The notes under the pieces are model-generated. The model was not told the origin of the DNA. It was given only the letters and a program-made list of their open reading frames with translations, and ran no database searches. From a virus, in the IMG/VR virus record IMGVR_UViG_3300046311_000087, positions 1 to 23,543 of that record: 23,543 nt of DNA. One strand, written 5' to 3'. The position numbers and the translations under genes are program-made. Positions within the stretch are counted from its first letter, which is position 1, and each line of letters opens with the position of its first letter. This document shows, in pieces, positions 2,696 to 8,405 of this stretch.

Positions 2696-3102
2696 TGGTT
2701 TATTTTATTTAAAAGTTCAATACGTCTTCTATTAACTTCTTCAAATCTGTACATATCGTTCTCTACAGACTCGTGTTCTAACAAAGATAATAGAATAATA
2801 TTAGATTTATCATACTCTAGCTCAGGATATTTACTCTTAGGGAGGATATGATGAAAGAATGTTGATAATGGTTCACTTCCCAGATAGTCACCGCTCACCT
2901 CAGAGTAGTGTTTACGCTCTTTCCAGATCTCTAAGAACAGGTTTCTCATGGTTTCTATCTTAGTCTTCTTGACGAACATATCACGCTTAGCTACTAAGAG
3001 TCCTCCACGCTTTGGTGTGATGGGCTTACGCTTGATGTGATTCAAGCATAAACCCTTTCCCCACACCCGATTCTCACAACCCTCTACACTACAGCTCTTC
3101 AT
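2692..3102 (-). CDS. NinG/HNH-like nuclease with N-terminal zinc finger
   Basis: The 136-residue protein has two parts. Residues 4-22 form a C-x4-C-x9-C-x2-H zinc-binding knot (C4, C9, C19, H22). Residues 82-110 read FFHHILPKSKYPEL, then an N at 101 and H at 110, which is the HNH-like core of phage NinG/Rap-type recombination nucleases (His pair, Asn, distal His). Such enzymes cut branched or nicked DNA during recombination. Placement between dUTPase/RecA and the rest of the unit fits a repair role. The gene overlaps its upstream neighbour (DUF3310) by 14 bases. Exact substrate is inferred from the family only. Confidence 0.78.
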   Translation of the reverse strand: MKSCSVEGCENRVWGKGLCLNHIKRKPITPKRGGLLVAKRDMFVKKTKIETMRNLFLEIWKERKHYSEVSGDYLGSEPLSTFFHHILPKSKYPELEYDKSNIILLSLLEHESVENDMYRFEEVNRRRIELLNKINQ

Positions 3103-3439
3103 CCTTTGAATAAGTTATCTCTCGTTGAATATACCAGAGAGCTTTCTGAAGGTCTTGATTTTTGTTATCCTTCTTATCTGATCTAAGAATATACTTAATA
3201 GCATTTCCTAAATTAAATCCTAGCTCATAGTCTTCAATGATATCAATAACTTCAAACCTATTACCCTGGTAATGATCAGGATGATTAACCATCTCTCTTT
3301 CTAGTATCTCTTTCATAACTTTACGTGCTCCGTATGGATCATCTCCTAATGCTTTTATTTCTTCTTGTAACACTTGTTTTCTTCGAGCAATCTCTGCTTG
3401 ATTTGCTTGATACATTTCTTCTTCTAATTGATCAATCAT
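3089..3439 (-). CDS. DUF3310 family protein
   Basis: The C-terminal 65 residues hold the DUF3310 signature: VNHPDHYQGN (51-60), FEVIDIIEDYELGFNLGNAIKYILR (62-86) and a conserved DLQKALWYIQRE. The first 50 residues are a Gln/Glu/Lys-rich helical extension, probably coiled coil. The family is widespread in phages and is sometimes annotated nucleotide-kinase-like, but its reaction is not established to my knowledge. Its neighbours dUTPase, HAD phosphatase and RecA make a nucleotide-related role plausible. The start overlaps the HAD gene stop by 8 bases (ATGATTGA). Confidence 0.85.
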   Translation of the reverse strand: MIDQLEEEMYQANQAEIARRKQVLQEEIKALGDDPYGARKVMKEILEREMVNHPDHYQGNRFEVIDIIEDYELGFNLGNAIKYILRSDKKDNKNQDLQKALWYIQREITYSKDEEL

Positions 3440-3899
3440 GTTCTGCTGTGTTTTCTGTTTTTGATAAAATATTACGTTCTTCTAACATTTCTTCAACCTT
3501 AACCCAATCTACAAAAGGTTTTGATGATAAATTAAGATCAATTTTTAATGGGCATCCTATGGCACTGTCATCTATCATTAAAGGAGCATAACTTTTAGGG
3601 GATTCTGTCCATGTAGATTGTGTAGGATTTGTTTGTACTCCATATAAAGGAATATCATTATCCATAAACCATTTTATAGCATCATTTAAGAAATGACCAT
3701 TGGTATCAGGCGTAAGATCTCCTTCAATTTCTTTAAAGGTGATCATGTTGCTTCTCATAGTAAAGAGGATCAATTGATGACCCTCTTCTACTAATCTCTT
3801 TAATACAGGAATTGCTCCTATATCTTTACCTATTTCTGGAAAACTGTGTGTTACACATGTTCCATCAAAGTCTATGTTGATTGCTATAGGTTTTATCAT
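3432..3899 (-). CDS. HAD-superfamily phosphatase-like protein
   Basis: This 155-residue protein has the HAD motifs in order: motif I DFDGTC with the two catalytic Asp at residues 10 and 12, motif II FTMRS near 46-50, a motif III Lys in SPKSYAP and motif IV LMIDDSAIG with the acidic pair. It resembles the small stand-alone HAD proteins of Bacteroidota annotated as BT0820-like hydrolases. The expected reaction is hydrolysis of a phosphate ester; the substrate is unknown, though its position next to dut suggests a nucleotide. ATGA overlap with dut upstream, 8-base overlap with DUF3310 downstream. Confidence 0.85.
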   Translation of the reverse strand: MIKPIAINIDFDGTCVTHSFPEIGKDIGAIPVLKRLVEEGHQLILFTMRSNMITFKEIEGDLTPDTNGHFLNDAIKWFMDNDIPLYGVQTNPTQSTWTESPKSYAPLMIDDSAIGCPLKIDLNLSSKPFVDWVKVEEMLEERNILSKTENTAEHD

Positions 3900-5467: not shown

Positions 5468-5614
5468 TTAACACAACGTTAAATCTTTAGTCTCTTTAAT
5501 CCACTTGGGATTATAAGGACAATTTTTACATTTGTTACCGCAGCATTTGCCTCGACTTGCTAAGAATTCTTTAGACAAGCTCGCAGGCACCTCCTCCGCA
5601 GGCAACTGATTCAT
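5468..5614 (-). CDS. 48-aa Cys-rich protein overlapping the nrdJ tail (DUF5522-like)
   Basis: A short frame in another phase from nrdJ runs from ATG 5614 to TAA 5468-5470. Residues 15-36 read KEFLASRGKCCGNKCKNCPY, with Cys 24, 25, 29 and 32. This CCGNxCxxCPY pattern matches, as I recall it, a family of very short Bacteroidota proteins annotated DUF5522, function unknown; the cysteines look able to bind a metal. The gene shares 44 bases with the end of nrdJ, so the first 15 residues are coded by the same DNA as the reductase's C-terminal redox tail. A TTG at 5578 would give a 36-aa form starting just before KEFLASRG, with an 8-base overlap like several other pairs here; which start is used is uncertain. 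It is the last gene before the terminator at 5407-5444. Confidence 0.7.
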   Translation of the reverse strand: MNQLPAEEVPASLSKEFLASRGKCCGNKCKNCPYNPKWIKETKDLTLC

Positions 5615-7436
5615 TGAAGTTAACTGTGTCATCTACTTCTTTAATCTTAGTAATATCAATTTCTTTTAATTCACTAATAAGTGAATTGTATTTCTCTTCA
5701 GTGATGTCCTCGAAAGGAGCTTGCTGATATGAACCACCCCAATAAGGTAGTACAGATAAACCGTTATAGAACTCACGGTTGTCCCACATCCAGTCTCCTA
5801 CCATTTTCCATTCATCTTGTTGAATAGAGATAGTAGCGCTTACGTTATGTGTATTGTCACCGTTAACGTGTCCAGAGTTAATCCAATTGGTAGAAAAATG
5901 CTTCACACGCTCAAGCGTATCGATAGCTGTTTCAGTACGTAAGATAGAACCTTCTGGTGCTTTCACTGGAATACGTACACACACTGTATCATTAGGGCGT
6001 AATACATCATCTTCACATAGCTCAGGATGATTCTCCATTAAGTACATTGCAATGTCTTCGTTCTTGTTGAAGCGCATTGTACGTAAGTAATAGTCATTAT
6101 GCCAAGCATGGATACCAGATGCAGTTCCTAATACTAGAGATGTAGTACCTGAAGGTTTAACACATGTAATACGTGCTGCTTCATTGATACCAGTCTTCTC
6201 TGTAATTAGTTGATTCACCTTCTTAGCAATGTGAGCTGCTATTTCTAGTTTGTATTTCATGATTTCTCCTGAACCAATACCAGTCATACCAATACCTAAC
6301 AATGCATCTTTCTGTGTAGTTGCAGCCCAGATAGGACGCAAGTAGTGAAAGTTTGTAAATCCTGCTTGTAACGTACCAAAGAATGCAGCTGCTGCTACAC
6401 GCTCATTAAGATCTTCTTGGCTAGTTACATCACTCACATTCACTTCACATAGATTACAGAATTGGTATGGACGTAATGCAATCTCACAACATGGGTTAGT
6501 TCCCCAGTCTTGATTGTTACTCCAATACAAACCTGGTTCTCCAGATCCTGATGCTTCTACACGCTTCCATAATTCCATGAACTGCTCTTCTGTCACTTCA
6601 CCACGAGGTAACACTGCAGAGTTGTTAGAACGACCACGCTGCTCATTAAGCTCCCACCAGTTACCATACTTACATGTAATCATCTCTTCGTCCGTGTAAT
6701 CAAACAAACAGATCATAGCTGATCTACGGATACCACCAGCTAACACTGAGTTAGCAATGTGACATAGGATATCATGGCATTCTAAGGGAGATAATGTCTC
6801 TCCTGGTTGCTTTCTATCTAAGACAGCCTGAACGTGTGTGAGGCAAAGCTTAAGAGGCTCTGGGCCTGGTGCTTTACCACCTGCTGTTACAAGACGTGCA
6901 CCTTTTTCACGAATAGCACGGAAATCAAACTTAGGCATGAACCCACCTTCTAGGTAAGCTTTCATTAACACCTTCACAGCATCAGCCCAGCCCATGATAC
7001 TATCCTCAATAAGGTAGGTGCGAGCTTTGCCTGGCTTAGTAATATCTGGTAGTTCACTTACGTGATGTGATTGTACTGAGTATCCTACACCTGTACCTCC
7101 TAACAATAAGAACATTGTCTCAGAGAATGAATGGATACTATCAATTGGTAAGAAACAACAGTTGTAGATACGGGCGTTGTTTACTTCAGCTGCAGCACCT
7201 GCAAACTGTAATGCTCTCATAGAAGGCAAGATTTTCTTGTCTCTAATCATTGGGATTGAAGTCTTGATAGATTCCTCTAAATAAGGGTACTTCTTGATCA
7301 TCATTGTTTCGTAACGATCAACAATCTCATCCCACGTTTCTCTTCGTTTTAGCTCTGGAATGTACTTTGCGTACTTGCTAAAAACCGTGATAGAACTTAA
7401 TGCCTGGAGTCCTAAATCTGTACTTGTATTATTCAT
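5571..7436 (-). CDS. nrdJ: class II (adenosylcobalamin-dependent) ribonucleotide reductase
   Basis: Reduces ribonucleotides to deoxyribonucleotides using a B12-generated thiyl radical. The match is to the monomeric Lactobacillus leichmannii type (RTPR). NPCCEI (314-319) supplies the radical Cys 316 and catalytic Glu 318. Cys 327 (QFCNL) lies 11 residues after Cys 316, the same spacing as C408/C419 in RTPR. Its redox partner is in YNCC (93-94). VKPSGT and a swinging C-terminal tail CGGGAC (Cys 613 and 618) are also present. At 621 aa it is about 118 shorter than RTPR; most of the loss is between the first redox Cys and the active site, where the allosteric insertion lies, so regulation may differ. 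The enzyme needs host B12 but no oxygen or NrdB partner. The start overlaps the upstream orphan by 8 bases. The tail is read in a second frame by the 48-aa gene. Confidence 0.95.
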   Translation of the reverse strand: MNNTSTDLGLQALSSITVFSKYAKYIPELKRRETWDEIVDRYETMMIKKYPYLEESIKTSIPMIRDKKILPSMRALQFAGAAAEVNNARIYNCCFLPIDSIHSFSETMFLLLGGTGVGYSVQSHHVSELPDITKPGKARTYLIEDSIMGWADAVKVLMKAYLEGGFMPKFDFRAIREKGARLVTAGGKAPGPEPLKLCLTHVQAVLDRKQPGETLSPLECHDILCHIANSVLAGGIRRSAMICLFDYTDEEMITCKYGNWWELNEQRGRSNNSAVLPRGEVTEEQFMELWKRVEASGSGEPGLYWSNNQDWGTNPCCEIALRPYQFCNLCEVNVSDVTSQEDLNERVAAAAFFGTLQAGFTNFHYLRPIWAATTQKDALLGIGMTGIGSGEIMKYKLEIAAHIAKKVNQLITEKTGINEAARITCVKPSGTTSLVLGTASGIHAWHNDYYLRTMRFNKNEDIAMYLMENHPELCEDDVLRPNDTVCVRIPVKAPEGSILRTETAIDTLERVKHFSTNWINSGHVNGDNTHNVSATISIQQDEWKMVGDWMWDNREFYNGLSVLPYWGGSYQQAPFEDITEEKYNSLISELKEIDITKIKEVDDTVNFNESVACGGGACELV

Positions 7437-7773
7437 TATTATCTTGTTTTAAATAGTTACTAATCCAATCATGAAGTAAATTAATATCATACCAACTGTT
7501 TACTGATATAATAAGACAATGGCCAAATGTTTTATCACTTGAAATTGCTATATCCTCTACAAAACTTGGTATATTATACTTTGCTCTCTTTTCTTTGTCA
7601 GGAACAAATACTGGTATAATATCCTCAACAGAACCTCCAGTATATTCTATATGGTCATATTTATGCAGATTGAATACAGGTTCAAATTTATCTACATCAT
7701 CTACAAACACTCTTAACTGTGCTGAGTCAAGACTAATGTACTGTGTCTTGATTAAGTCTTCTATATTACTCAT
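7429..7773 (-). CDS. uncharacterised protein between HNH nuclease and nrdJ, 114 aa
   Basis: No family recognised. The protein is acidic, soluble and 114 residues long, with a Val/Asp/Phe-rich first half (RVFVDDVDKFEPVF) and a hydrophobic strand in CLIISVNSWYDI near residue 85, giving a mixed alpha/beta look. It overlaps the HNH gene upstream and nrdJ downstream by 8 bases each, so it is locked into the reductase transcript. It could be an accessory factor of the reductase or cargo brought in with the endonuclease gene; neither can be shown here. Confidence 0.72.
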   Translation of the reverse strand: MSNIEDLIKTQYISLDSAQLRVFVDDVDKFEPVFNLHKYDHIEYTGGSVEDIIPVFVPDKEKRAKYNIPSFVEDIAISSDKTFGHCLIISVNSWYDINLLHDWISNYLKQDNNE

Positions 7774-8317
7774 TGTTTAAATAATTTATTGCGTTCTTCA
7801 AAAATTCTACACTGTCATCAAACTGACCTAATCCTTTGTTACACTTTCCACATAGAATACCTCTAACCTTTCCAGTTGCATGATCATGATCAATATGAAT
7901 CTCAGAACTTAACTCTCTATTACATATTGCACATTGATTGTTTTGATCATCAACCATCTGATTAAACTGTTCTTTTGTTATTCCGTATCTCTTAAATCTA
8001 CCTGTACTCTTTGCGTAGTTCTTGAATCTTTCTTTTGAACAACTTTTACAAACAGATGTTTTTCCAGACTTATTGTTATAGTATTCTGAGTCAGGTTTGT
8101 GTTGTTTACAATCAATACAACATCTTTGATTATTCTTATCATACAAAACCATTCCTAAACCTCCTGCATTCAACGAATTAGAGCAAGATTTACAAGCATG
8201 ATTGTATTTCTTAGCTTTATAAAAATAAGATTTACTTGCAAATTCTCTATCTTTTTTACAGATTGGACAGGCTAATTTGTAAGTAATTTTACTCAAGGCT
8301 TCTAGTCCTAAATCCAT
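7766..8317 (-). CDS. endonuclease VII-type HNH (homing-like) nuclease with reductase-like N-terminus
   Basis: The 183-residue protein has three Cys-rich parts. C17/C20/C42/C45 and C67/C70/C90/C93 form two zinc-ribbon-like modules. The C-terminal nuclease is of the recombination endonuclease VII family: C129-x2-C132, IHIDHDHATGKVRGILCGKCN with DHDH at 143-146, and C156-x2-C159. The first residues DLGLEALSKIT nearly repeat residues 7-17 of NrdJ (DLGLQALSSIT), and the likeness stops exactly there; 11 bases of DNA (GATTTAGGACT) are also identical. Free-standing HNH genes near phage reductase genes are often homing endonucleases, so this is probably a selfish gene that captured the 5' end of its target. 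It is the first gene of the reductase unit, behind the promoter at 8357-8387. Confidence 0.88.
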   Translation of the reverse strand: MDLGLEALSKITYKLACPICKKDREFASKSYFYKAKKYNHACKSCSNSLNAGGLGMVLYDKNNQRCCIDCKQHKPDSEYYNNKSGKTSVCKSCSKERFKNYAKSTGRFKRYGITKEQFNQMVDDQNNQCAICNRELSSEIHIDHDHATGKVRGILCGKCNKGLGQFDDSVEFLKNAINYLNNE

Positions 8318-8342
8318 ATAGTTGATTATTTTAAATGTTGAA

Positions 8343-8376
8343 AATTAAAGGGCTACAAATGTAACTTTGTAGCCCC
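8343..8376 (-). terminator. intrinsic terminator after the 135-aa gene
   Basis: A perfect 10-bp stem GGGCTACAAA (8351-8360) with TTTGTAGCCC (8367-8376) encloses a 6-base loop. On the minus strand the stem is followed by TTTAATTTTC. It ends the unit that begins at 11178. The same DNA carries the -7 box of the next promoter. Confidence 0.82.
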
Positions 8377-8387
8377 CAATAAACAAT
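8357..8387 (-). promoter_or_regulatory. Bacteroidota-type promoter for the reductase unit
   Basis: On the minus strand TTG (8387-8385), a 20-base spacer and TACATTTG (8364-8357) match the Bacteroidota vegetative consensus TTG-N17-23-TAnnTTTG exactly. Transcription would start near 8350 and give a leader of roughly 30 bases before the HNH gene's ATG at 8317. The -7 box lies in the loop and distal arm of the terminator hairpin, so terminator and promoter share sequence. Confidence 0.55.
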
Positions 8388-8405
8388 CAATTGCAAAAAT
8401 TAAGT

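Follow-up and report, generated by a model that had tools for sequence, protein, structure and literature searches.

A probable end-swapping homing element in the ribonucleotide reductase gene nrdJ of a phage

We found that the phage ribonucleotide reductase gene nrdJ very probably harbours a free-standing homing element, which lies within the coding sequence between codons 12 and 13 and appears to have swapped the end of the gene. The window, which means here the whole 23,543-nucleotide stretch of the virus record IMGVR_UViG_3300046311_000087, carries an HNH nuclease gene, a small gene (orf114) and nrdJ in series on the minus strand. The features of the locus are listed below.

8318..8405 (-): native leader of nrdJ, which now precedes the HNH gene; it aligns with the nrdJ leaders of HNH-free relatives
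8375-8350 (-): terminator-like hairpin GGGCTACAAAGTTACATTTGTAGCCC in this leader
within 8318..8405 (-): Bacteroidota-type promoter-like pattern TTG-N20-TACATTTG, present in most, not all HNH-free relatives
8282..8317 (-): displaced native nrdJ codons 1-12 (MDLGLEALSKIT), now HNH codons 1-12; 32/33 bases after the ATG match nrdJ of L007-L010
7383..8281 (-): inserted unit, consisting of HNH from codon 13, orf114 and the rebuilt nrdJ 5' end through Val (native codon 13)
7766..8317 (-): HNH gene, 183 aa, with an EndoVII-type nuclease (residues 109-182) and an additional N-terminal zinc domain (C17/C20/C42/C45)
7429..7773 (-): orf114, putative cargo gene, between HNH and nrdJ and overlapping both
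7383..7436 (-): rebuilt nrdJ 5' end, MNNTST-DLGLQALSSIT-V, whose codons differ from those of the native end
5571..7382 (-): nrdJ body of the phage's own lineage, 89-94% identical in protein to HNH-free L005-L011

The borders of the inserted unit were drawn from a second carrier (L098) and from empty sites, and the unit is missing in syntenic relatives. The complete nrdJ ORF (7436-5571, minus strand) runs uninterrupted in a single frame, and its body matches the ribonucleotide reductase family phrog_367 (4e-127). Four separate IMG/VR records of the window phage have identical junctions, which excludes an assembly slip. The gene orf114, an extra gene absent from the earlier sequence-only reading of this DNA, overlaps the HNH stop by 8 bases (ATGAGTAA) and the nrdJ start by 8 bases (ATGAATAA), which suggests translational coupling from HNH through orf114 to nrdJ.

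In the nrdJ leaders of most relatives, the conserved hairpin overlaps a promoter-like pattern TAnnTTTG about 45-51 bases before the start, and possibly acts as terminator and promoter at once. The promoter is only suggestive, since several relatives, including the lineage of L098, do not have the pattern. The host probably belongs to the Bacteroidota, to judge only from the leader pattern and from what kinds of small genes surround the homologues of orf114.

The HNH protein starts MDLGLEALSKIT-YKLACPICK and the NrdJ of the window starts MNNTST-DLGLQALSSIT-VFSKYAK. As the sequence-only reading had noticed, DLGLEALSKIT (HNH residues 2-12) and DLGLQALSSIT (NrdJ residues 7-17) match at 9/11 residues, 11 bases are identical (GATTTAGGACT at 8314-8304 and 7418-7408), and the match ends at a single point, T|Y in HNH and T|V in NrdJ. 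The best 11-residue match between the N-termini never exceeded 7 in 20,000 shuffles, so the shared head is far beyond chance.

Which of the two heads is native can be read from phages without the nuclease. We retrieved 80 nrdJ relatives for comparison. Among the nearest ones that reach the 5' end, nrdJ starts MDLGLEALSKIT|VFSKYAK or a close variant, and the gene order is orf348-orf185-orf135-nrdJ-recA, with neither HNH nor orf114. Their nrdJ is uninterrupted and the site is intact at the exact codon boundary of the insertion. Because both the leader and the head of the HNH gene match these HNH-free relatives, HNH occupies the original nrdJ start, and it is the 5' end now found on nrdJ that is the newcomer. 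In native numbering, codons 2-13 of the window nrdJ are 69% identical to L008 and codons 14-25 are 89% identical, so that identity to kin jumps at codon 14. Over the same codons 2-13 the rebuilt end matches L098 at 36/36 bases; the closest native ends are those of L016 and L019 (29/36 bases). No remnants of past elements were found upstream of nrdJ in non-carriers at a level of 7/11 residues.

These comparisons, together with carriers in three nrdJ lineages, support the earlier proposal that a homing gene entered the 5' end of nrdJ and kept its first codons. That proposal also held that the reductase had kept or regained its own start. A regained start agrees with the data, with one refinement: the head of HNH, not that of nrdJ, is the native nrdJ start. 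The earlier reading anticipated neither a foreign rebuilt end that two divergent phages share almost unchanged, nor the return of the design in other genes.

The HNH protein belongs to PF02945 (Endonuclease VII) with an E-value of 2.6e-26 and 91.7 bits against a cut-off of 23.6 bits, and it also matches EndoVII PHROGs. Its nearest solved relatives, both by sequence and by fold, are Hpy99I and T4 EndoVII; the structure model is of moderate confidence (pLDDT 74). The catalytic residues D143, H144, H146 and N160 and the zinc cysteine pairs are invariant, as in members of the EndoVII family, and are consistent with an active enzyme. We scanned IMG/VR with the pattern of the N-terminal zinc domain and obtained 14 contigs, in all of which nrdJ adjoins the nuclease gene. 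They comprise the carriers at the 5' site and eight contigs in which a different HNH overlaps the nrdJ 3' end. A scan of bacterial genome contigs for the HNH gave no match.

The HNHs of these eight contigs (L127-L134) share the zinc domain and have a different catalytic part. Most of them start V[KS]FNLACPTCGK, and they do not have the DLGL segment, which therefore does not belong to the zinc domain as such. The earlier reading had named a segment general to this HNH family in phages without nrdJ as the finding that would speak against it, and these 3'-end proteins do not refute it. At the 3'-end HNHs of L127-L134, neither a displaced nrdJ tail nor a terminal copy was found.

The second carrier, L098 (IMGVR_UViG_3300032323_001252), was found by a search with orf114 and has HNH-orf114-nrdJ at the same codon as the window. 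It is a different phage, with protein identities to the window of 83% for nrdJ, 71% for recA and 30% for orf135. Its HNH head agrees at 32/33 bases with the nrdJ start found in its own lineage (L090, L092, L095), and not with that of the window. Its nrdJ is 53% identical to L095 over codons 2-13 and 100% identical over codons 14-25; 7/9 residues shared with L095 in codons 2-13 use different codons, and these codons are 100% identical to those of the window. The left border of the insertion is codon 12|13, and the right border lies within native codons 13-15.

From 7804 to 7378 the window differs from L098 at 3 positions in about 427 bases, and identity then falls inside nrdJ. The two HNHs are only 67% identical, although the downstream block is nearly identical. 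It means that the unit was not always moved in one piece, and that the nuclease and the rescue and cargo part were once exchanged separately. When the HNH gene of the window (7766-8317) was compared with L098:4460-5008, the front two thirds had about 53-76% DNA identity, and from the last part onward it was 90-100%. This mosaic looks as if the target-finding part had been swapped.

A third carrier, L108/L109, was found with a profile of the window and L098 HNHs, and its HNH is 58% identical. The HNH head of L108, MDLGLEQPTEII, has drifted, its HNH overlaps nrdJ by four bases, orf114 is missing, and nrdJ starts MNKLKE-DLGLSALSSLT-VFGKYAK. Having only distant kin, it gives a weaker insertion boundary. 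In a tree of the nrdJ body, the window, L098 and L108 fall in separate clades, and well-supported branches force three separate changes. The element is thus present or absent at one site, inside its target gene, with neither intron nor intein, as is characteristic of free-standing homing genes.

The protein of orf114 is identical in L098. Homologues with 75-88% identity occur in L100-L103, where neither HNH nor nrdJ is nearby and the neighbours are ordinary small genes; orf114 is a widely shared small gene. We read it as a gene captured as cargo by the element of the window. We considered orf114 as an obligatory part of the element and rejected this, since L108 is a carrier without it; the minimal unit is HNH plus the rebuilt 5' end. 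No confident fold match was obtained for orf114, and it has no homologue among named phages.

The same design was seen at other gene ends. A mirror-image case is the cultured Gordonia phage SteveFrench (L139, MG770214), in which the capsid gene (1652-2851) is followed by the HNH gene gp16 (2998-3453). RoyalG (L150), a near-identical sibling, and Adgers (L151) have the empty site without HNH. The gene gp16 finishes with the native capsid 3' end: its last 27 bases are those of the RoyalG major capsid gene end, and the flank beyond matches at 79/80 bases. Against RoyalG, the SteveFrench capsid gene differs by eight synonymous codon changes and no amino-acid change in the final 14 codons, counting the stop. 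In the 300-base stretch ahead of the last 9 codons, 296 bases match RoyalG, and the four mismatches are confined to three of the eight changed codons. The other case is the nrdJ 3' end of L098 (L098:7150-7900), which has a replaced tail (CSGGACETNI), an HNH of a different type (about 7248-7811) and, from 7813, the displaced native tail (AGGACATE) with native flank. This tail lies outside the HNH reading frame and is not fused to it. HNH-like ORFs of this 3'-end type were also observed downstream of nrdJ in L021, L032 and L092.

We also examined 19 further loci of EndoVII type in named phages and found no terminal copy of the neighbour gene at any of them, which counts against the element. It means that the end-swapping design is uncommon among EndoVII-type genes, or that it erodes.

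Separately, an HNH-like part was seen within an intein-like insertion that lies in frame at the P-loop of recA (GWEG|C...VVHN|SGKST) in L024 (8100-9250) and L025.

How might such an arrangement arise? In the mechanism that we propose, the EndoVII-type HNH would cut uninvaded nrdJ near codons 12-14, and the invaded genome would serve as template for repair, the homology arms being the native 5' end plus leader on one side and, on the other, nrdJ from codon 14 onward. The native nrdJ start would then turn into the start of the HNH gene, which would acquire the nrdJ leader and probably its promoter, while nrdJ would be completed by the 5' end that the element carries. Since this end is coded differently, the reductase would survive, the target would not be recreated, and recombination between the two copies would be discouraged. 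The rebuilt end may be near enough in protein (9/11 residues) to function and distant enough in DNA (69%, 36 bases) to keep the target from arising anew; the recoding probably protects the rebuilt gene against the nuclease of the element. Cleavage at the nrdJ site and repair-driven homing are what we infer from the invaded and empty sites.

The main competing explanation needs no cutting by HNH. An HNH-orf114-nrdJ series could have been joined to the nrdJ start of another phage by an illegitimate crossover, and the resulting cassette could have spread by homologous recombination. The mosaic nature of phage genomes would favour this, and so would the limitation of the near-identical block between the window and L098 to the 3' part of HNH, orf114 and the nrdJ end. 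It has to face, however, the same insertion codon in three carriers with diverged HNHs, a nuclease that has stayed intact, and the same design with different HNHs at other gene ends. We regard it as unlikely, at odds of the order of one in several.

A decayed group I intron in nrdJ, with its ORF fused to the upstream exon, was the alternative named by the sequence-only reading. In-frame fusion of an HNH ORF to the first exon is a known pattern of introns. But no Rfam intron model matched, nrdJ is complete in one frame so that splicing is unnecessary, and an intron would leave unexplained why a second, foreign and differently coded copy of the first exon stands right before codon 14. This alternative did not hold up, and we consider it very improbable. 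An intein was rejected as well, since HNH, orf114 and nrdJ each form an ORF that ends in a stop of its own, and no Pfam intein domain was detected.

If the nrdJ 5' end had been duplicated in tandem at its own locus, with HNH arriving later in one copy, the presence of the 11 residues twice in the same phage would be accounted for. Under this reading, the nrdJ copy should not equal L098 at every base and yet stand so far from close kin, nor should identity change so sharply at codon 14; the comparison with L098 largely refutes duplication, to which we give hardly any weight. Least probable of all, and already refuted, is that the two heads are alike by chance or that the segment belongs to the HNH family in general, against which stand the shuffle test, the HNH-head DNA whose identity to native nrdJ follows lineage, and the zinc-domain HNHs elsewhere without the segment.

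The homing element with a swapped gene end may not be a single case. We lean towards the view that end-swapping homing elements form a general class in phages that has gone unrecognised, in which an HNH gene inserts in an essential gene, often takes over the severed native start or stop, and carries a recoded replacement. Such elements would have arisen apart from the WHO elements of yeasts and with more than one HNH type, sometimes with cargo like orf114. End replacement would then be a further route into essential coding sequence beside introns, inteins and gene splitting, and it would account for short gene-end copies in phage genomes which annotation has overlooked. Engineered homing drives with a recoded rescue are the counterpart of such elements, and if the reading is true, the phage elements are a natural precedent for them. 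As SteveFrench is a cultured carrier and RoyalG an empty-site sibling, invasion by a selfish nuclease without killing of conserved genes can be tested directly.

Several known systems resemble the nrdJ element in part. MobE in nrdA of phage Aeh1 is likewise a free-standing HNH inside a working phage ribonucleotide reductase gene, but it splits nrdA into two functional pieces, whereas nrdJ stays whole by replacement of its end (PMC2988022). In ShiLan, an HNH-bearing homing insertion, neither intron nor intein, lies in the coding sequence of a phage DNA methylase; the methylase reading frame continues through it, its HNH is in another frame, and end replacement is not described (PMC11855218). 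F-CphI of cyanophage S-PM2, annotated as a homing endonuclease adjoining psbA, belongs to the same superfamily (41.9% identity over residues 65-180), and no terminal copy of the neighbour gene was found there. A survey of phage homing genes from 2023 names WHO only in connection with HO (PMC10448857). In the literature searched, which covered few subscription papers, no phage homing element that replaces a gene end was reported.

The closest parallel is found in yeast. In Torulaspora and Lachancea, WHO elements home into FBA1, whose 3' end they exchange for a resistant version (Coughlan et al. 2020, eLife, PMC7282813), and both cleavage and resistance were demonstrated experimentally (PMC7282813). 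As in WHO, a nuclease gene sits in an essential gene, one gene end is replaced, splicing is not involved, and the old end is displaced beyond the nuclease gene; this unit of nuclease, replacement end and displaced old end was found at the nrdJ 5' end and at two 3' ends. The differences are that WHO replaces the 3' end in yeast with an intein/HO-type nuclease, while the nrdJ element replaces the 5' end in a phage with an EndoVII-type HNH. Unlike WHO, the nrdJ element has made the displaced end into the beginning of its nuclease gene, and its cleavage and resistance are predicted. The nuclease of WHO is HO/intein-like with zinc fingers and is unrelated to the EndoVII-type HNH, so the phage elements would work like WHO but are not members of that family.
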